DNA of 47,864 nt from Candidatus Izemoplasma sp. (GTDB taxonomy: Bacteria; Bacillota_I; Bacilli_A; Izemoplasmatales; Izemoplasmataceae). The notes under the pieces were generated by a model, which was given only the letters and a program-made list of their open reading frames with translations, searched no databases and had not been told where the DNA came from. Position numbers and translations under genes: made by a program. Shown in pieces: positions 10,287 through 30,266 of the stretch; position 1 is the first letter of the stretch; each line of letters begins with the position of its first letter. The stretch lies in assembly GCA_007117885.1 (NCBI GenBank), contig SKFS01000088.1, positions 1-47,864 of the forward strand, written 5' to 3'.

Positions 10287-10300
10287 TACAAGCGCTTTCA
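10287..10300 (+). promoter_or_regulatory. Candidate cre (CcpA) site
   Basis: TACAAGCGCTTTCA versus cre-type TGAAAGCGCTTTCA (2 differences), upstream of the -35. Confidence 0.5.
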
Positions 10301-10318
10301 CTTTTTTGCGAAAAAGGC

Positions 10319-10346
10319 TTGATTTCTCACTCATACGCGATATAAT
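10319..10346 (+). promoter_or_regulatory. Putative SigA promoter of the glutamate mutase operon
   Basis: TTGATT (10319-10324), 16-nt spacer, TATAAT (10341-10346). Confidence 0.65.
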
Positions 10347-10352
10347 TAAAAA

Positions 10353-10557
10353 TGTATTAAGCAATAAAAACCTATGACAAGATTGATCGGGGTAACGCTG
10401 ATGATTCGCATGCAAATTACTACCTTGAATACCATCTTAATAAACGCCGTATCCTTAGGGAACGACAAGGTTTTTTGCTTAACAAAAAATACGATATTCT
10501 AAGGATGATTTTTGTCAAAAATTGTCCTTTTTGTTAGGGTAATCTAGGAGGAATCCC
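10353..10557 (+). ncRNA. Structured 5' leader of the glutamate mutase operon (candidate attenuator/riboswitch)
   Basis: ~200-nt leader. ATCCTTAG (10451-10458) is complementary to CTAAGGAT (10499-10506), which overlaps the 5' arm of a 13-bp hairpin (10501-10529, two G-U pairs, GTC loop) followed by TTTGTT. Confidence 0.5.
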
Positions 10558-10962
10558 ATGAAAACTATTGTCATTGGTGTCATCGGTGCTGATGTGCATG
10601 CAGTCGGGAATAAAATCATTGAGCATGTTTTAACTGAACAGGGTTACAATGTGGTCAATGTGGGTGTCTTAAGTACACAAGAAGATTTCATTCATGCGGC
10701 GATTGAAACGGATGCGGACGCGATTATGGTCTCATCGCTTTATGGCCATGGTGAAATCGACTGTAAATATATGCGTGAAAACTGTGTCGAAGCCGGGATC
10801 GGTAAAGTGAAACTGTACGTCGGTGGAAATATCGTGGTCGGTAAACAAGATTTTAAAGAAGTCGAACAACGCTTTAAAAAAATGGGCTTTGATCGTGTTT
10901 ATCCACCCGGCACAAATATCGAAGATGCGATTGCGCATCTAAGAGAGGATTTGGGTGAGTAA
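10558..10962 (+). CDS. glmS: Methylaspartate (glutamate) mutase, S subunit (B12-binding)
   Basis: [40 protein letters not shown]12-binding DxHxxG variant; [15 protein letters not shown]. Confidence 0.93.
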
Positions 10963-12338
10963 TGAGTGTTCATCTGCTTGTAGATTTTGGCTCGACGTAT
11001 ACAAAACTTACAGCGGTCGACTTAGAAGAAGAACGCATTGTAGGAACATCTAAAGCGATGACAACTGTAAAAACGAATGTCTTGGATGGCTTTAATAATG
11101 CCATGGATAAGCTTAAAAACACCCATCCAGACATGAAGGAAATTACAGCTATTTCAGCATGCTCAAGCGCTGCTGGAGGACTAAAAATGGCTGCGATTGG
11201 CCTCGTAGAGGAACTCACAGTAGAAGCCGCTAAACGAGCCTGCTTAGGGGCGGGAGCCCTCGTTAACACGGTTTTTAGTCACCATTTAAGCCGCAAAGAA
11301 ATCAAACAGTTAAAAAACGCCGACATTGATATTATCTTACTTGCCGGGGGCACAGACGGCGGGAACAAAGAATGCATTCTTCATAACGCAAAAAAACTTG
11401 CCGATGCGAAACTCTCTGTGCCAATTATTGTCGCTGGAAATAAAGACGCGCAAGATGAAATCGAAGAAATCTTTGAAGCGAGCAACATTGAATATTACAT
11501 TGTTGAAAACGTGATGCCGAAACTTAAGCAATTGAATGTTAAAGAAGCTAAAGAAGTCATCCGTCAAATATTCATTACAAAAATCATTGAAGCCAAGGGA
11601 ATAAAAAAAGCTGAAGAACAAACCGGAGAGATTATTATGCCAACCCCTGAAGCGGTTTTAATCGCTGCAGAACTCTTAGCAAAAGGGCATGAAGACGTCG
11701 AAGGTTTCGGTGAACTTATGGTCATTGATATTGGTGGTGCGACCACCGATGTGCATACTATTGGCGCCGGGTTTCCTAAACGCTCAGAAGTGATTTTTAA
11801 AGGTCTACAAGAACCGTTTGCGAAGCGTACTGTGGAAGGTGACCTCGGCATGCGTTACAGCGCAAATGCCTTAGTGAGCCTTGTTTCACCGTATGAGTTT
11901 AAACAGTATTCAAGCTATCAACACGATATCGGTGAAGCCGCTAAAAAACGCCATGAAAATGTCGATTATCTTCCGGAATCTGATGAAGAAAAAGAGTTTG
12001 ATCGTGCCTTAGCGAAGATTTGCTGTGACTATTCAATGAGCCGTCATGTTGGTCAAGTTGAAGTCGTCTATACACCGCTTGGAAATATGTACTATCAAAC
12101 CGGTAAAGACCTTACCGATATTCGTTATGTGATTGGCACGGGTGGAGTTTTAATCAACAATGAAAACGCCAAAGACATCCTCCGTGAAGTCAACCAAAAA
12201 AGCAATAAAAAACTTGAACTCCGACCCACCGATCCGATTTTCCTAATCGATCAACTGTATATATTATCGGCGATGGGACTGCTCGGACAAAAGTACCCAA
12301 AGCTCGCCATCAAACTTATGAAAAGACACTTGGAGTAG
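10962..12338 (+). CDS. glmL: GlmL/MutL, glutamate mutase-associated ASKHA-fold protein
   Basis: LLVDFGSTYTKLTAVD, IILLAGGTDGGNKE, LMVIDIGGATTDVHT; between glmS and glmE. Confidence 0.9.
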   Translation: MSVHLLVDFGSTYTKLTAVDLEEERIVGTSKAMTTVKTNVLDGFNNAMDKLKNTHPDMKEITAISACSSAAGGLKMAAIGLVEELTVEAAKRACLGAGALVNTVFSHHLSRKEIKQLKNADIDIILLAGGTDGGNKECILHNAKKLADAKLSVPIIVAGNKDAQDEIEEIFEASNIEYYIVENVMPKLKQLNVKEAKEVIRQIFITKIIEAKGIKKAEEQTGEIIMPTPEAVLIAAELLAKGHEDVEGFGELMVIDIGGATTDVHTIGAGFPKRSEVIFKGLQEPFAKRTVEGDLGMRYSANALVSLVSPYEFKQYSSYQHDIGEAAKKRHENVDYLPESDEEKEFDRALAKICCDYSMSRHVGQVEVVYTPLGNMYYQTGKDLTDIRYVIGTGGVLINNENAKDILREVNQKSNKKLELRPTDPIFLIDQLYILSAMGLLGQKYPKLAIKLMKRHLE

Positions 12339-12344
12339 ATAGCT

Positions 12345-13826
12345 ATGATTGAAAATAAGAAATTAGACTGGGATTATTTTTTAAAAAAACGCGCACAAAT
12401 ACTACGGCAATGGGAAACTGGATCGAGCCCATTGCTTGATTTTGAGTCAGCGATTGAAACCTTAAAGAACATCCCTGAAGATAAAAACTTTGCCTTAAAA
12501 CTTCGCAAAGCAAAAGCCTCAGGAGAAACGATGATTCAACCGCGTGCAGGCGTCGCTGTACTCGATGAACACATCGCTTTACTAAAATACCTTCAAGAGG
12601 TTGGCGAAGCCGACTTTTTGCCCTCGACAATTGACTCCTATACCCGCCAAAACCGTTATCAAAATGCTCTAGATGGCATTAAAGAATCGGAAAAAATGGG
12701 CCGGAGCATGTTAAACGGTTTTCCCGCCGTAAACTATGGTGTTGAAGGCTGTAAAAAAGTTATTGATGCTCTAAACGTACCGCTTCAAGCGCGTCACGGT
12801 ACGCCCGATGCGCGCCTGCTTACCGAAATCATTCATGCCGCAGGATGGACCTCTAATGAAGGTGGCGGCATATCCTATAACATCCCTTATGCAAAAAGTA
12901 TTGGCTTAGAAGACACGATCCGTTATTGGCAATATTGCGATCGTTTAGTTGGCTTTTACGCTGAACAAGGCATTGAACTTAACCGCGAACCGTATGGTCC
13001 TTTAACCGGCACATTAGTCCCCCCATCGATTTCACATACCGTGGCCATTATCGAAGCCTTGCTCGCTGCCGAACAAGGGGTTAAAAACATCACTGTTGGG
13101 TATGGTCAAGGGGGCAATATCGTTCAGGATGTGGCGGCGCTTCAAACCTTAGATGAACTCACTAACTACTACTTAAAACTCTTCGGTTATAACGATGTCT
13201 TTGTCACCACCGTCTTCCATCAATGGATGGGTGGTTTTCCCGCAGACGAAGCGAAATCAGTGGGCCTCATCGGTTTAGCCTCAACCGTGGCTGCACTCGG
13301 AAAAGCCACAAAAATGATCACTAAATCCCCCCATGAATCGCAAGGTGTGCCAACGAAAGAAGCCAATGCCGAAGGCTTGCGCGCTTCGAAAATGGTGACA
13401 CGTCTTTTAAAGGAACAGAGCATGCCGTCATCCACAGAACTCTCCACAGAAAAAGAACTCATAAAAAAAGAAGTGAATAATCTAATATACGCAACCTTAA
13501 ATGTTGGCAAAGGCGATCTTGCTAAAGGTGTTGTCAAAGCTTTTGAAATGGGTTTAATTGACATTCCTTTCGCGCCGAGTGAAATGAACGCAGGGAAAAT
13601 CTTACCCGCCCGTGACATCGACGGAAAAATTCGCATCTTAGAATTTGGTAACCTTGCTTTTGATCAAGAAATTAAAGCACTTCATAAAAAAGCGTTAGAA
13701 AAACGCGCTGAAGTTGAAGGGCGTAAAGTTTCTTTCCAAATGACGATTGATGATGTTTACGCCGTGAGTCAAGGTGTTTTAGTTGGGAAGCCTAGAAGAA
13801 AGGATGAGCAAAATGAAAATCATTGA
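12345..13826 (+). CDS. glmE: Methylaspartate (glutamate) mutase, E subunit
   Basis: [58 protein letters not shown]; context. Confidence 0.93.
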
Positions 13827-15063
13827 TGTTCGTTGTTCAACGGGCGTAACAGGGTTTTACTTCGACGATCAAAACGCGATTAAATCGGGCGCATTAATGG
13901 ATGGTTTTATGTATCAAGGCGAACCCCAAACACCCAAGTTTAACGCCATTCGCCAAGCCGGTGAATCATTGTCAATCATGCTTATTTTAGAAGATGAAAC
14001 CATCGCCTATGGTGACGCTGCAGCCGTTCAGTACTCTGGTGCGGGTGGTCGTGATCCACTCTTTTTAGCCGAGGAAGGGAAAACCTTTTTCGAGCAGCAC
14101 GTCAAACCACGCCTTATCGGACGGGACGTGCGAAAGTTTAAAGCCAATGCCGAATACTTCGACAGCTTAAAAATCGCTGGAGAACTTATGCACACTGCGA
14201 TTCGCTATGGCATTACGAGCGCCCTACTTGATGCGACGGCGAAAGCCAATCGTTTAACCATTCCTGAAATAGTACGCAAAGAGTATAAGCTCACCAACAA
14301 GCACTACACTGCGATTCCTATCTTCGCTCAAACTGGTGACGAACGTTATGCCAATGTCGATAAAATGATATTAAAAGAAGTTGATGTTTTACCCCACGCC
14401 CTCATTAACAACATCGACACAAAACTAGGGCGTCAAGGCGAAATCTTAAAAGAATATATTATGTGGCTACGCAATCGCATCCTCGCTAAGCGTGCCCGTG
14501 AAACATACCAACCCATCCTACATATTGACGTTTATGGAACCATTGGCATTATTTTTAATTATGACTACCCAAAAATCTTCAAATATTTAAAAGAACTCTC
14601 AGATATCGCCCATCCCTTTACGTTAAGAATCGAAGGCCCCATCGATCAAGGCAACCGTGAAGAGACGATGATTGCCTTAAAAACTTTACGTGAAATGATT
14701 GATGCTGATGATGACGTGAATGTTGAAATCGTTGCCGATGAATGGTGCAACACCTTTGAAGACGTGAAATATTTCACCGACCATAAGGCGGGTCACATGG
14801 TCCAGGTGAAAACGCCTGATCTCGGTGGCGTCAACAATATAATCGAAGCCTTACGCTATTGCCTCAAGCATAACATGGGGGCCTATAGTGGCGGGTCATG
14901 CAATGAAACCAACATCTCAGCGGAAATCACCACGTCAATTGCCATTGCCTGTGAAGCATCACAATGTTTAGCGAAACCCGGAATGGGCGCGGATGAAGGC
15001 ATCATGATTGTCAAAAACCATATGCAACGGACACTCGAACTTATAAGGAGGCGTTCCTCATGA
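13813..15063 (+). CDS. mal: Methylaspartate ammonia-lyase
   Basis: [80 protein letters not shown]. Confidence 0.95.
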
Positions 15064-15320
15064 ACAACATTGTTGTTGGTAGCTTAGAATCAAGTGATTG
15101 TCTAATGACTCTAAGTCCTCATGAAAGCCGAAAAATCACCATTGAAAGCATCGTATACGATGCATACTACGAAGCGATTCATCAAGCAATCACGACCCTT
15201 TTGGATGAACATAATCTTCATCAAGTGCATGTCCTATGCCAAGATAAAGGTGCCTTAGAATACACGATAAAAGCACGACTCAAAACCGCTATCTTACGCT
15301 ACAAGGAGGTACGATCATGA
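15060..15320 (+). CDS. citD: Citrate/citramalate lyase acyl carrier protein (gamma subunit)
   Basis: 86 aa, GSLESSDCLMTLSP (prosthetic-group serine region); directly upstream of citE. Confidence 0.9.
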   Translation: MNNIVVGSLESSDCLMTLSPHESRKITIESIVYDAYYEAIHQAITTLLDEHNLHQVHVLCQDKGALEYTIKARLKTAILRYKEVRS

Positions 15321-16132
15321 GTCGTAGTTTTTTGTTTATTCCTGGTGATGTTCCAAGGATGATTCAACAACTAGAAATTTTCTCTGCCGATAGTGTCATC
15401 CTCGATTTTGAAGACAGTGTTGCCACACATCAAAAAGATGAAGCGCGCAACCTCGTCGAAAGCTTTTTAACTCAACACCATTTCACCACCCCGGCGATCT
15501 ATGTTCGCATTAATGCAACGGACAGTGATGAATTTATTGCCGATATGCAAACACTGAAAAATCTACCGATTAAAGGCATTGTTTTACCCAAAGCTTCGTT
15601 AGCTGCCATTGAAACAGTCACAAAACATTTAACCTTGCCCATCATTGCTTTATTAGAAACGCCATCAGGCTTTTTATCGCTTCCTGACATTGCCCAACAT
15701 CCAAGTGTCGAAGGACTCTTGCTAGGGGCTGAAGATCTCGCGAAATCATTAGATTTAGAACGCACTGTTTCAGGTGAAGAAATACTTTATTTCCGCAGTC
15801 AGCTCGTCTTAACTGCGAAAGCCTATCATAAATATGCGATTGACACGCCTTTTACGAACACCACGTCCGATATCGGATTACTAGAAGATATTAAGCGATC
15901 TAGACAACTTGGTTTCGATGCCAAAGCCGCCATTCATCCAAACCACATTAGTGCCATTAATCAGCACTTTTCACCGAGTGAAGCGGCGATTCATGAAGCG
16001 CGGCGAATTATGACCATTGCCGAAAAACAGCAATCGGTTCGTTTTAGTCTCGATGGCCGCATGATCGATAAACCAATCATTGACCGTGCAAAAAAAACAC
16101 TCGATTTAGCCAAGCGTTATCGCTTATTATAA
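15317..16132 (+). CDS. citE: Citrate/citramalate lyase beta subunit
   Basis: RSFLFIPGDVPRM, VILDFEDSVATHQKDEAR, IALLETPSGF, AIHPNHISAIN. Confidence 0.93.
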   Translation: MSRSFLFIPGDVPRMIQQLEIFSADSVILDFEDSVATHQKDEARNLVESFLTQHHFTTPAIYVRINATDSDEFIADMQTLKNLPIKGIVLPKASLAAIETVTKHLTLPIIALLETPSGFLSLPDIAQHPSVEGLLLGAEDLAKSLDLERTVSGEEILYFRSQLVLTAKAYHKYAIDTPFTNTTSDIGLLEDIKRSRQLGFDAKAAIHPNHISAINQHFSPSEAAIHEARRIMTIAEKQQSVRFSLDGRMIDKPIIDRAKKTLDLAKRYRLL

Positions 16133-16141
16133 GGAGGGCGT

Positions 16142-17548
16142 ATGCAACCAATCTACCATTCACTCGAAGCACTGTTTAACGACCTGCCTCTTAAGGATGG
16201 TCTAAACATTTCGTTCCACCATCATTTGCGTAATGGCGATGCCACCCAAAACCTCATCTTAAGCTACTTAAGAAAACAACAACTCAACGACTTAAACCTT
16301 TATCCATCCGCAATATTTCCTGTTCATACAGAACTCTTAACACTCCTAAAAGAAGGCCGTGTTAAAAACATTACCACCAACTACATCAATGGCCCAGTGG
16401 CTGAATTCTTAGCGTCTAACCCGCTCCCAGGCCAACTAAAAATGCAAACCCATGGCGGCCGAGCGCGAGCGATTATTAAAGGTGAAACGACGATTGACAT
16501 CGCGTTTATTGCCGCCCCGATCGTTGACGCTCAAGGCAATGCTGCAGGCTATGATGGTCCCTCAGCGTGCGGGAGTTTAGGCTATGCCATCGAAGACAGT
16601 CAGTACGCAAAAAAAACCGTACTCATTACTGACCATCGGGTTGAGAAACTTCCTCAATATGAGATTAAATCTAAGGATGTTGACGCAATACTATGCGTTG
16701 ATTCACTCGGTAATCGTGAAGGCATCGTCAGTGGTACGACCGCCATTACCAAAGACCCAGTCGGCTTAAAAATCGCTAATAACGCGGCCCGTTTAATCGA
16801 TGAACTCAAGTTAGTTAAACCCGGCATGAACTTTCAAAGTGGTGCCGGCGGTATCAGTTTGAAAGTCACCGATCATTTACGTGAAATGCTTCGTGCCCGC
16901 AACGTAAAAGCCGGGTTTTTCTCAGGCGGCATCACACAAAGTCATGTGGAAATGTTAAACGAAGGATTAGTGGAACGTTTGTACGATGTCCAATGCTTCG
17001 ATTTAGCCGCCATCCAAAGTTTAAAAACAAACCCCTCGCATATTGCCATCAGTGCTAGCGACTATGCTAACCCAGACAACCAAAACCGCGTCATCAAAAA
17101 TCTCGACCTCGTAATTTTAGGGGCGACAGAGATCGATCTTAACTTTAACGTTAACGTAACAACTGACTCCTATAACACCATCATCGGTGGTTCTGGAGGC
17201 CATAGTGATACCGCGACAGATAGCTTTGTAAGCCTCATTGTAACACCCCTTTTTAAAGCCCGCACACCGATCATTAAAAAACGTGTGAACACCATTACCA
17301 CCCGTGGTAAAAACATCGATATTTTAGTGACCGAACGAGGGATTGCGATCAACCCTCTACGCCTGGATTTACTAGATCGATTAAAAGAGAGTCACCTGCC
17401 GATTTACCCTATCGAAGCGCTTTTAGAAAAAGCCTATGCTTACACTGGAATCCCCCAAGAATACGATCTTAGAGATCAACCTTTAGGTGTTGTTGAAGAT
17501 CGGGATGGCCAGATTATTGATACACTCTACACTAAAAAAAGAAGGTGA
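16142..17548 (+). CDS. citF: Citrate/citramalate lyase alpha subunit (CoA-transferase type)
   Basis: ISFHHHLRNGD, MQTHGGRARAI, FQSGAGGISLKVTD, GGSGGHSDTATDS, VTERGIAINPLR. Confidence 0.93.
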   Translation: MQPIYHSLEALFNDLPLKDGLNISFHHHLRNGDATQNLILSYLRKQQLNDLNLYPSAIFPVHTELLTLLKEGRVKNITTNYINGPVAEFLASNPLPGQLKMQTHGGRARAIIKGETTIDIAFIAAPIVDAQGNAAGYDGPSACGSLGYAIEDSQYAKKTVLITDHRVEKLPQYEIKSKDVDAILCVDSLGNREGIVSGTTAITKDPVGLKIANNAARLIDELKLVKPGMNFQSGAGGISLKVTDHLREMLRARNVKAGFFSGGITQSHVEMLNEGLVERLYDVQCFDLAAIQSLKTNPSHIAISASDYANPDNQNRVIKNLDLVILGATEIDLNFNVNVTTDSYNTIIGGSGGHSDTATDSFVSLIVTPLFKARTPIIKKRVNTITTRGKNIDILVTERGIAINPLRLDLLDRLKESHLPIYPIEALLEKAYAYTGIPQEYDLRDQPLGVVEDRDGQIIDTLYTKKRR

Positions 17549-17552
17549 GACA

Positions 17553-18566
17553 ATGCTGTTTCATGACATTGTACTCGATGAAGAAAAACAACAGGTTAAA
17601 GCATTTTTAAACAAGTTTAAGCTTCATTACGAAGAAGATATTGATCAAACCATCGTCATCAAAGACAACCAAACCTTGATCGCTACTGCAAGCACAAGCC
17701 ATAATATTATTAAATGCATTGCCATCGAACCTCAATACCAAGGACAAAACCTCCTAGCAACACTGATGACAGAAATGATCAAGCGTTTAGCAAAACGCGG
17801 CATCAACCATTACTTTGTGTATACCAAAGACGACCAAGCGCATTTATTTAAAGCTTTAGGACTTAAGAAAATCGTGCAAACCATTGATGTGGCTCTCTTA
17901 GAAGGAGGGGACAACATCGAAGAAAAACTCCACCAGCTAAAAACCGACTATCACCTTTCAAACAAACCAAAAGCTGCGATTGTCGTCAACGCCAACCCAA
18001 TGACAAAAGGCCATTATCACTTAATTGAAACCGTCGCCTCAAAACATGCAGATGTGCTTGTTTTTGTCGTGAGCGAAGAACGGAGTGTCTTTCCTTTTGA
18101 AAGCCGTTTTAAGATTGTCAAAAACGCCTGCCAATCGCTGACTAATGTGACCGTTTTACCAACTTTGGACTACTTAGTATCGTACGCAACATTTCCTAAG
18201 TACTTTATGAAAAATGAAACAAAAATCCGTGAAGAACACGCCTTAATCGATGTGTTAGTCTTTAAAGAATACTATATGAAAATCTTAAACATTCAAGACC
18301 GATATGTTGGTGAAGAACCGTTAAGTCCGATGACAGAAATGTATAATCAAACAATGAAAAAATACTTAAACCATCGCTTTCATATTATTCCAAGAAAGAC
18401 GCTTGATAATATTCCTATCAGCGCCTCAACAGTCCGTAAACTATTAAAGAAGAATGGCTTAGAGGCTGTGAAACCTTATGTAACGGAGACGACCTATCAG
18501 TGGTTAAAAACCGAGGAAGGCACAAAAACGATTGCGCGGATTAAAGACCATGACCAAAGACATTGA
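17553..18566 (+). CDS. citC: [Citrate (pro-3S)-lyase] ligase
   Basis: N-terminal GNAT-like part then nucleotidyltransferase AAIVVNANPMTKGHYHLIE, FVVSEERSVFPFESRF, ISASTVRKLL. Confidence 0.9.
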   Translation: MLFHDIVLDEEKQQVKAFLNKFKLHYEEDIDQTIVIKDNQTLIATASTSHNIIKCIAIEPQYQGQNLLATLMTEMIKRLAKRGINHYFVYTKDDQAHLFKALGLKKIVQTIDVALLEGGDNIEEKLHQLKTDYHLSNKPKAAIVVNANPMTKGHYHLIETVASKHADVLVFVVSEERSVFPFESRFKIVKNACQSLTNVTVLPTLDYLVSYATFPKYFMKNETKIREEHALIDVLVFKEYYMKILNIQDRYVGEEPLSPMTEMYNQTMKKYLNHRFHIIPRKTLDNIPISASTVRKLLKKNGLEAVKPYVTETTYQWLKTEEGTKTIARIKDHDQRH

Positions 18567-21689: not shown

Positions 21690-21694
21690 GATGT

Positions 21695-21913
21695 CAAGCG
21701 AAGAACCAGAAAGAGTAGTAAGGCCCTTTATTAAAAGAGACTTAGTGGTTGGTGGAAACTAAGATAAACCCTTATGAATTAGTCTGGGGAGCTGTGTAGG
21801 TGCAACCCGTGAGCTTACACCGCAACTCTGCGTTAAAGAGATGAGTGCTAGATATCTAGAACTAAGGTGGTACCGCGGAATTATTTCGTCCTTATTGATT
21901 AAGGGCGTTTTTT
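21695..21913 (+). promoter_or_regulatory. T-box leader of leuS
   Basis: AGTA S-turn, GGTGGAAAC apical element, T-box AAGGTGGTACCGCG (21864-21877), terminator CGTCCTTA/TAAGGGCG (21887-21907) plus T-run. The TGGT bulge is compatible with discriminator A. Confidence 0.93.
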
Positions 21914-28878: not shown

Positions 28879-29940
28879 ATGAAGATCTTAACGATCAATC
28901 CTGGATCTACGAGTACAAAAGTAGCGATATTTAATGGCTTAAAACGCATTGCTAAAACTACGATTCGTCATACTGACAGCGAGATTTTAGCCTTTGAAAC
29001 CTTAGCTGATCAAATCCCGCTACGTCAAACAGTGATTTTAGATTTTTTAAATGAATACGATTTTTCTTTAGAAGATATCGACGGTTTCATTGCCCGCGGT
29101 GGACTACTTAAACCACTTGATAGTGGGTTATATGAAGTAAACGAAGCGATGATTCATGACTTAAGAAACCACACTTATGGCTCTCACGCATCAAATTTGG
29201 GCGGGCTAATCGCTTATGAACTCGCCTCACAAGTTGGTAAAAAAGCGTATATCGCTGATCCTGTAGTGGTCGATGAAATGTCTACGATTGCCAAAATGTC
29301 AGGACTGAACGGTGTGACACGCCGGAGTTTATTTCATGCTTTAAATCAAAAAGCCGTTGCTCGACATTATGCCGATAAAGTCAATATTCCCTATGAAGAA
29401 CTTCACTTAATCGTGGCCCACCTAGGGGGTGGCATTAGTATTGGCTATCATAAACAAGGACGGGTTGTCGATGTCAACAATGCCCTTGATGGCGATGGAC
29501 CCATGTCACCTGAACGTTCAGGAAGTCTACCGGTTTGCAGCATCATCGACATGGCTTACAGTGGTCAATACTCAAAAGATGACTTAAAAAAACTCATCCA
29601 AGGTTTCGGGGGGATGTTTAGCTACCTCAACACCAAGGATGCAGAAGAAGTTTCCGATATGTTAGCGAGCGGTCGGGTTGAAGCCAATCGAGTGGTTAAA
29701 GCCATGGTTTATCAAATAGCGAAAGAAATCGGGGCCCTTTACGCGATTACAAAAGGCCACCTCGATGCCATCATTTTAACCGGTGGACTCGCTTACAATC
29801 AAGACATTGTCCAACCTCTCATTGAAACGATTGAGCACCTTGGGGACATCGTGCTCTTCCCTGGTGAAAACGAACTTGAAGCACTTGCCTTTAATATGCA
29901 TGCTTTTCTAAAAGGCACCATTGAAGAAAAACAATATTGA
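28879..29940 (+). CDS. buk: Butyrate kinase (branched-chain acyl kinase)
   Basis: ILTINPGSTSTKVAIFNG, FIARGGLLKPLDSGLYEVNEAM, VAHLGGGISIGYHKQGRVVDVNNALDGDGPMSPERSG. Confidence 0.93.
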   Translation: MKILTINPGSTSTKVAIFNGLKRIAKTTIRHTDSEILAFETLADQIPLRQTVILDFLNEYDFSLEDIDGFIARGGLLKPLDSGLYEVNEAMIHDLRNHTYGSHASNLGGLIAYELASQVGKKAYIADPVVVDEMSTIAKMSGLNGVTRRSLFHALNQKAVARHYADKVNIPYEELHLIVAHLGGGISIGYHKQGRVVDVNNALDGDGPMSPERSGSLPVCSIIDMAYSGQYSKDDLKKLIQGFGGMFSYLNTKDAEEVSDMLASGRVEANRVVKAMVYQIAKEIGALYAITKGHLDAIILTGGLAYNQDIVQPLIETIEHLGDIVLFPGENELEALAFNMHAFLKGTIEEKQY

Positions 29941-29962
29941 GCCGATAAAAAGGCTCTTTTTT
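29939..29962 (+). terminator. Intrinsic terminator of the buk operon
   Basis: GAGCC / GGCTC with 8-nt loop and T-run, beginning in the buk stop codon. Confidence 0.75.
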
Positions 29963-30011
29963 GTAGCTGAAAAAGCAACGATACGCTATAATAGAGTTGC
30001 GAGGTGATGAC

Positions 30012-30266
30012 ATGGAGCGGTTTATCTCAAAGCTTATCTACGGTTTAATCGCATTAATTTTTCTTATGGTCATTTTTTTATTCACCCGACTTGGTCGAAG
30101 TGATGTTTGGGTAGCACTAAGTTTTGTGTTTTTAAGTGGCGTTTGGTTTAGCTTAAGCTACCTGCACGTCTTAAAACAAAACATGCAACAAGCTAGAAAC
30201 TATTTACTCTTCGGTTTTGCAACGGTGTTTCTCAGTCTACTTTTATTGCTCTTTATCGTTCGCTAA
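30012..30266 (+). CDS. Small membrane protein of unknown function
   Basis: GAGGTG RBS; three hydrophobic segments in ~84 aa. Confidence 0.55.
   Translation: MERFISKLIYGLIALIFLMVIFLFTRLGRSDVWVALSFVFLSGVWFSLSYLHVLKQNMQQARNYLLFGFATVFLSLLLLLFIVR

Follow-up and report, generated by a model that had tools for sequence, protein, structure and literature searches.

Conserved leader reading frame running into an intrinsic terminator upstream of the glutamate mutase operon of Izemoplasmatales: a probable translation-dependent transcription attenuator

In the pyrL leader of Escherichia coli, a U-rich stretch and a hairpin lie upstream of the terminator, and the sequence of the leader peptide is unimportant. 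Control of the pyrBI operon by this leader has been described in terms of translation-transcription coupling and of terminator position (PMC4824070). In E. coli, a stop codon lying a few nucleotides upstream repressed a terminator almost completely, and full activity was seen when the distance exceeded about 27 to 30 nt; a terminator located within 100 bp of the start of a coding region is able to evade the ribosomes unless a pause exists (PMC4824070). In the pil1 locus of S. gallolyticus, leader peptides whose end falls inside or past the terminator raised transcription, whereas one ending 39 bp before it led to termination (PMC3894217). Finally, leaders with a small upstream open reading frame (uORF) have been described in M. 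tuberculosis, with an effect on downstream transcription or translation (PMC12810186, PMC11260477).

The leader described here, which precedes a glutamate-fermentation operon, is probably a translation-dependent transcription attenuator of the pyrL/pil1 kind, a reading that draws on sequence comparison and on analogy. As in pyrL, a short leader open reading frame (ORF) overlaps an intrinsic terminator, with a hairpin and a U-rich stretch upstream and a peptide whose sequence is probably unimportant, and by analogy translation close behind the polymerase is proposed to block the terminator. It differs from pyrL in operon and phylum and in an extra pairing of the 5' end that can close the Shine-Dalgarno (SD) sequence of the leader, and UTP sensing is a feature of pyrL. 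As in pil1 (PMC3894217), where the length of the peptide counts and its sequence does not, readthrough is predicted here when the ORF reaches into or past the terminator; however, pil1 switches by repeat slippage, whereas here the frame is constant and there are no repeats. The resemblance to the Mbox-uORF and B12 riboswitch-uORF leaders of M. tuberculosis (PMC12810186, PMC11260477) lies in an RNA structure that is predicted to govern the access of ribosomes to a small uORF, although those leaders rely on known aptamers and on Rho-dependent termination or coupling, in contrast to the intrinsic terminator and lack of a recognised aptamer found here. The trp/his attenuators likewise combine a leader ORF, hairpins and an intrinsic terminator before a metabolic operon; unlike them, this leader has no regulatory codons, no general antiterminator, and a stop codon inside the terminator foot. 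The leader would thus be a switch of an established type at a site where none had been described. No paper on leader control of glutamate mutase operons was found in the literature searched, and the Izemoplasma culture paper does not mention glutamate.

The glmS locus and its relatives

The window, that is, the whole stretch of 47,864 nucleotides analysed, carries on its forward strand, as are the promoter and the leader parts described below, an operon whose first gene is glmS (positions 10558 to 10962), encoding the B12-binding chain of glutamate (methylaspartate) mutase (PF02310, 1.2e-15). It is followed, from 10962 to 18566, by mutL, glmE, methylaspartate ammonia-lyase, citD-, citE- and citF-like lyase chains and citrate lyase ligase, assigned by Pfam. 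This content is consistent with the methylaspartate route of glutamate fermentation, which we take to be the function of the gene set. The Izemoplasmatales are close relatives of the mycoplasmas, and the host bacterium is wall-less. A sigma-70-type promoter, TTGATT-N16-TATAAT, lies at 10319 to 10346 (10/12 matches), with TTGATTT/TATAAT at the same position in most of the relatives' leaders, and transcription would start at around 10353.

Of 90 genomes belonging to the order, 77 carried glmS, and 80 glmS loci were found on named contigs, the nearest neighbours of the window being Candidatus Izimaplasma metagenome bins. Regions upstream of glmS were extracted from these metagenome assemblies and duplicates were removed, which yielded 40 distinct leaders of the family, 42 after later additions, and these were sorted into types A, B and C. 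In the GlmS tree, Candidatus Izemoplasma acidinucleici and a second Izemoplasma bin were nested inside the family, which is therefore in all likelihood Candidatus Izemoplasmataceae. None of the 46 other glmS loci, including those of a neighbouring family and that of the family member G009 (L048), showed an ORF running into a terminator before glmS. When covariance models of the A and B leaders were run against 49 family genomes, under strict filters with which weak copies may be missed, the strong matches were glmS leaders, found once per genome and only before glmS; one strong match, on a contig end, was not assignable to a gene. Six weaker full-length matches were inspected and none showed such a leader, the remainder covering the terminator part only. 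In these data the element is confined to one family and one operon. Elsewhere in the window a single weak candidate with a similar architecture was noted (29851 to 30012), probably internal to a coding region.

The leader reading frame and its terminator

The best-supported feature of the leader, overlooked by an earlier reading made from the sequence alone (the sequence-only reading), is an ORF of 33 codons (MIRMQITTLNTILINAVSLGNDKVFCLTKNTIF; 10401 to 10502), preceded by the SD GGGG (10389 to 10392; GAGG in most relatives) and ending with a TAA codon (10500 to 10502) on the foot of the terminator. An ORF was found at the homologous position in all 42 leaders, with an SD-led start codon located 145 to 166 nt before glmS, which was ATG in all cases but L045 (GTG). 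This frame (frame 0) was open to the terminator or through it in 42 of 42 leaders, as opposed to 1/40 and 16/40 for the other two frames. Similarly, among the first 40 leaders it remained open for 28 codons in every one, while the other frames did so in 1 and 15. In none of the 42 leaders did the frame 0 stop codon precede the terminator stem by more than 10 nt, whereas the other two frames met an earlier stop in 39/40 and 24/40. The frame 0 stops fell within -13 to +10 nt of the start of the stem in 30 leaders out of 40 and beyond this interval in the remaining 10; five leaders had their stop 10 nt ahead of the stem, a distance that a ribosome would barely cover. Shuffling gave a mean chance of 0.28 per leader of finding the frame open, but the product of this value over the leaders is not a valid probability because the leaders are related, and the other two frames constitute a better control.

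The intrinsic terminator, AAGGATGATTTTT-GTC-AAAAATTGTCCTT followed by TTTGTT (10501 to 10535), was present in all 40 leaders first collected, the two later additions also fitting, and its stem began 90 to 102 nt after the leader ATG. Its conservation in the leader sequences indicates that it is real, and the proposal of the sequence-only reading that the hairpin at 10501 to 10529, which is indeed followed by TTTGTT, terminates transcription in an attenuator leader is supported. Comparison of the leaders has therefore demonstrated, at the sequence level, the ORF, its frame, the spacing between stop codon and terminator, and the terminator itself. Most leaders retained AAGGAUGAU within the 5' arm of the terminator, even though the sequence of a terminator stem may change freely; the leader stop codon (GGA TGA or GGA TAA) is provided by a part of AAGGAUGAU.

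Close pairs of leaders gave information on what is being conserved. Between L084 and L086, which share 97% nucleotide identity, a one-base insertion and a one-base deletion shift the frame over 31 aligned columns, yet both peptides finish in ...KNDLYFN. A compensated frameshift across about 37 columns separates L050 from L141 (about 90% identity), and a shorter one was observed between L037 and L046, while that between L111 and L183 is in sequences too diverged and poorly aligned to be counted firmly. Thus, in at least two close pairs, paired +1/-1 indels scramble the middle of the peptide, the frame being restored before the stop. An assembly artefact is disfavoured, because the error would have to happen twice and compensate. 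These frameshifts indicate that selection acts on translation up to the terminator, that is, on the frame and end point of the ORF, and not on the peptide; leader peptides were not conserved among the leaders. The leader ORF is probably translated.

In most leaders the ORF stopped 48 to 77 nt before glmS, which carries its own SD. In about six (L010, L025, L033, L038, L042 and L060) it ended at or inside the glmS start; in L010, L033, L038, L042 and L060 it passed through the terminator to the region of the glmS start codon, so translational coupling of the leader ORF to glmS is possible there.

RNA structure around the ribosome site of the leader

Two structural elements, P1 and P3, were recognised. 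In P1, the beginning of the transcript, in many cases together with the SD, pairs with the segment just before the terminator. In the window its 5' arm (TTAAGCAA..AAAACCT, 10357 to 10373) pairs with 10468 to 10482 (AGGTTTTTTGCTTAA), a segment that includes the U-run, which lies some 30 nt ahead of the stem of the terminator. In duplex tests against shuffles, P1 pairing gave Stouffer z values of -6.5 in type A, -6.2 in type B and a weak -2.1 in type C, compared with +0.7, -0.2 and +1.6 for a control pairing of the 5' end with the middle of the leader, and own versus swapped partners gave a z of -5.5 (0 of 5,000 permutations), all of them scores that overstate independence, as the leaders share descent. 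A second control in type A, the middle of the leader with the pre-terminator segment, gave -4.0, which implies that P1 is not the sole pairing in this type. By energy, P1 was absent in several leaders, besides being weak in type C.

The predicted pairing of the SD was 0.99 in the window and averaged only 0.69 in type C. The window SD was predicted to pair with the local segment UUACUACCUUG (approximately 10418 to 10428), inside P1; a relative of the same genus retains UACCUUG, and GAGGU/ACCUU pairing was frequent in type B. The U-run had a median length of 5 and was located mostly 22 to 31 nt before the stem in types A and C. Compared with shuffles, the whole leader did not fold better (z of -1.2), while its pre-terminator part folded somewhat better (z of -2.3).

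P3 is a hairpin with conserved flanks, GC-[CGTATCCTTAGGGAACG]-AC (10446 to 10466), found in 27 of 27 A and B leaders with invariant GC and AC. Its third pair was T-A in 20 of these leaders, C-G in 5 and T-G in 2, and its fifth formed in 25 of 27, with several pair types. Since the block GCCG..CGAC falls in different reading frames in different leaders, P3 is conserved as RNA. The comparison of sequences thus demonstrated covariation in P3 and an excess of P1 pairing, and covariation among homologous glmS leaders, which the sequence-only reading had named as a check, was found in P3 of types A and B. The type C leaders lacked the P3 motif, and a hairpin at its position was no better than in shuffles. 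Given that type B splits off first in the GlmS tree and that A and C form one clade, P3 looks ancestral and lost in type C. The RNAalifold consensus of the B alignment contained only P3 (5 pairs), with no covariation term; P1 was missing from it because MAFFT does not align this pairing, and the evidence for P1 consists of the duplex tests and of anchored counts.

P1 and, in two of the three leader types, the covarying P3 enclose or abut the leader SD, and the best reading of the predicted structures is that they can hide the ribosome site of the leader, P1 acting as a gate for the SD. That P1/P3 constitutes a new element responsive to a small molecule or a protein, opening or closing the leader SD, with the ribosome as the expression platform at the intrinsic terminator, is conceivable but unlikely. 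More specifically, a metabolite riboswitch, in which a junction of P1 and P3 around the SD would bind glutamate, adenosylcobalamin, methylaspartate or a similar ligand and act on leader translation or directly on the terminator, would account for the preservation of P3 and its flanks as RNA and for the single copy per genome before glmS, and no Rfam family fits the leader. Scans of the window, of the leader alone with lax filters and of 18 homologous loci yielded no gathering-score match for it, in agreement with the sequence-only reading, and relaxed thresholds added only chance microRNA and snoRNA matches below the cut-off. However, the aptamer is usually the most conserved part of a riboswitch, whereas here the candidate aptamer is the least universal part of the leader: the only blocks common to all leaders were the SD-AUG, the stop codon with the terminator, and the pairing of the 5' end to the pre-terminator segment; between the AUG and P3, loop and junction showed hardly any conservation; the B consensus was limited to the five pairs mentioned above; and type C has lost P3 while retaining ORF and terminator. 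We therefore consider a riboswitch improbable. The attenuator proposed by the sequence-only reading stands as regards its kind, but its riboswitch interpretation is not supported, lacking an aptamer-like block shared by all leaders, and the part that it considered for an antiterminator protein would effectively fall to the ribosome.

A T-box was also discarded for the glmS leader, with no match to RF00230 there. The only T-box of the window is an ordinary one (21692 to 21896; RF00230, 127.5 bits) that precedes an aminoacyl-tRNA synthetase-like gene.

Proposed mechanism and antitermination

Judging from the leader sequences, a ribosome on the conserved ORF is most likely the antiterminator. RNA polymerase would start at around 10353 and make the SD and AUG of the 33-codon ORF, on which a ribosome would load and trail the polymerase, melting P1 and P3. 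On reaching the stop codon on the terminator foot, it would cover the 5' arm of the terminator, thus blocking it and allowing transcription of glmS and the following genes. With no timely ribosome, the 5' end of the RNA would pair with the pre-terminator segment to form P1, closing the SD of those transcripts, and the terminator would form and end transcription. The sequence of the peptide would be immaterial, only frame and end point being of importance. By the E. coli and S. gallolyticus precedents, these leaders should read through if the ORF is translated and terminate if it is not, so leader translation would be the cause of readthrough. P3 and the U-run may serve as a polymerase pause that lets the ribosome catch up.

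As the Glu codons of the leader ORFs were not enriched (41 versus 45.4 expected), we guess that the signal is the state of translation or of the nucleotide pools, in other words how readily ribosomes load and elongate compared with the speed of the polymerase, reflecting amino-acid or nucleotide sufficiency; glutamate would then be fermented only when translation is well supplied. If correct, this would link the fermentation of amino acids to the translational state of the cell and, as far as the literature searched shows, no control of this kind would have been reported before for the methylaspartate pathway of glutamate fermentation or for the Izemoplasmatales. It would also represent an attenuator in which selection keeps reading frame and end point rather than peptide, a property readable directly from compensated frameshifts, and other terminators blocked by translation could be sought by comparing sequences for this simple signature.

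The presence of a leader ORF, a hairpin and a terminator would also be expected of amino-acid attenuation of the trp/his type or of an arrest peptide, with slow or stalled translation at certain codons, or the nascent peptide, choosing between antiterminator and terminator. In a few B leaders (L084, L086 and L139) the pre-terminator segment does pair with the terminator arm (CCUUUAUUU/AAAUAAAGG). Nevertheless, a search for a cluster of regulatory codons in the leader ORFs yielded none; apart from Glu, at expectation, Ala, Val, Asp, Asn and Gln codons were in excess, probably owing to the nucleotides of P3 and of the N-terminal region. Furthermore, the middle of the peptide was changed wholesale in the frame-compensated pairs, the antiterminator pairing was not general, and the stop codon lies in or at the terminator, where a ribosome that has finished would block the terminator rather than allow it. 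Such a mechanism is thus quite improbable. Finally, that the ORF serves glmS translation through re-initiation or translational coupling, or that its product is a small protein with a function of its own, with the terminator secondary, is very improbable, since its reaching the glmS start in about six leaders is outweighed by the earlier stop in most of them, the SD of glmS itself, the lack of peptide conservation, and the terminator in all leaders.

With respect to antitermination by RNA pairing, the sequence-only reading had proposed that CTAAGGAT (10499 to 10506) either pairs with ATCCTTAG (10451 to 10458), enclosing TTTTTTG/CAAAAAA (10471 to 10489), or contributes to the terminator hairpin, with AAGAT/ATCTT (10379 to 10383/10434 to 10438) and ACCTTG/CAAGGT (10422 to 10427/10466 to 10471) as further pairings. 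All of them are present in the sequence. When the leader was shuffled with its dinucleotides preserved, 34% of the shuffles contained an exact 8-bp inverted repeat, so ATCCTTAG/CTAAGGAT is by itself nothing unusual and counts only if conserved; the leader holds five such repeats, a number reached by 1.2% of shuffles. In the relative of the same genus the pairing shrinks to 5 bp (AUCCU/AGGAU) and it is missing from the other leaders, and hence the proposed exchange between terminator and antiterminator is conserved only within the genus. A general antiterminator formed by the pre-terminator segment and the terminator 5' arm was likewise rejected, own versus swapped partners giving a z of 0.28 and thus no specificity; this pairing was better than in shuffles only in a few B leaders, among them L084, L086, L139 and L111.

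A cre-like site was noted in the window and in the corresponding region of L032, L035, L039 and others. In the window (10287 to 10301; TTACAAGCGCTTTCA) and in type A and B leaders it lies upstream of the glmS promoter. In the family member G009 (L048), the promoter and the cre-like site are kept while the leader ORF and terminator are absent, which amounts to a natural deletion of the attenuator; the whole element being absent there, it is dispensable. In the type C leaders, the cre-like site lies directly 3' of the -10 box (AAAGCGTTTACA), where it also forms part of P1 and would act as a roadblock. Because the site changes position between clades, its displacement suggests altered catabolite control.
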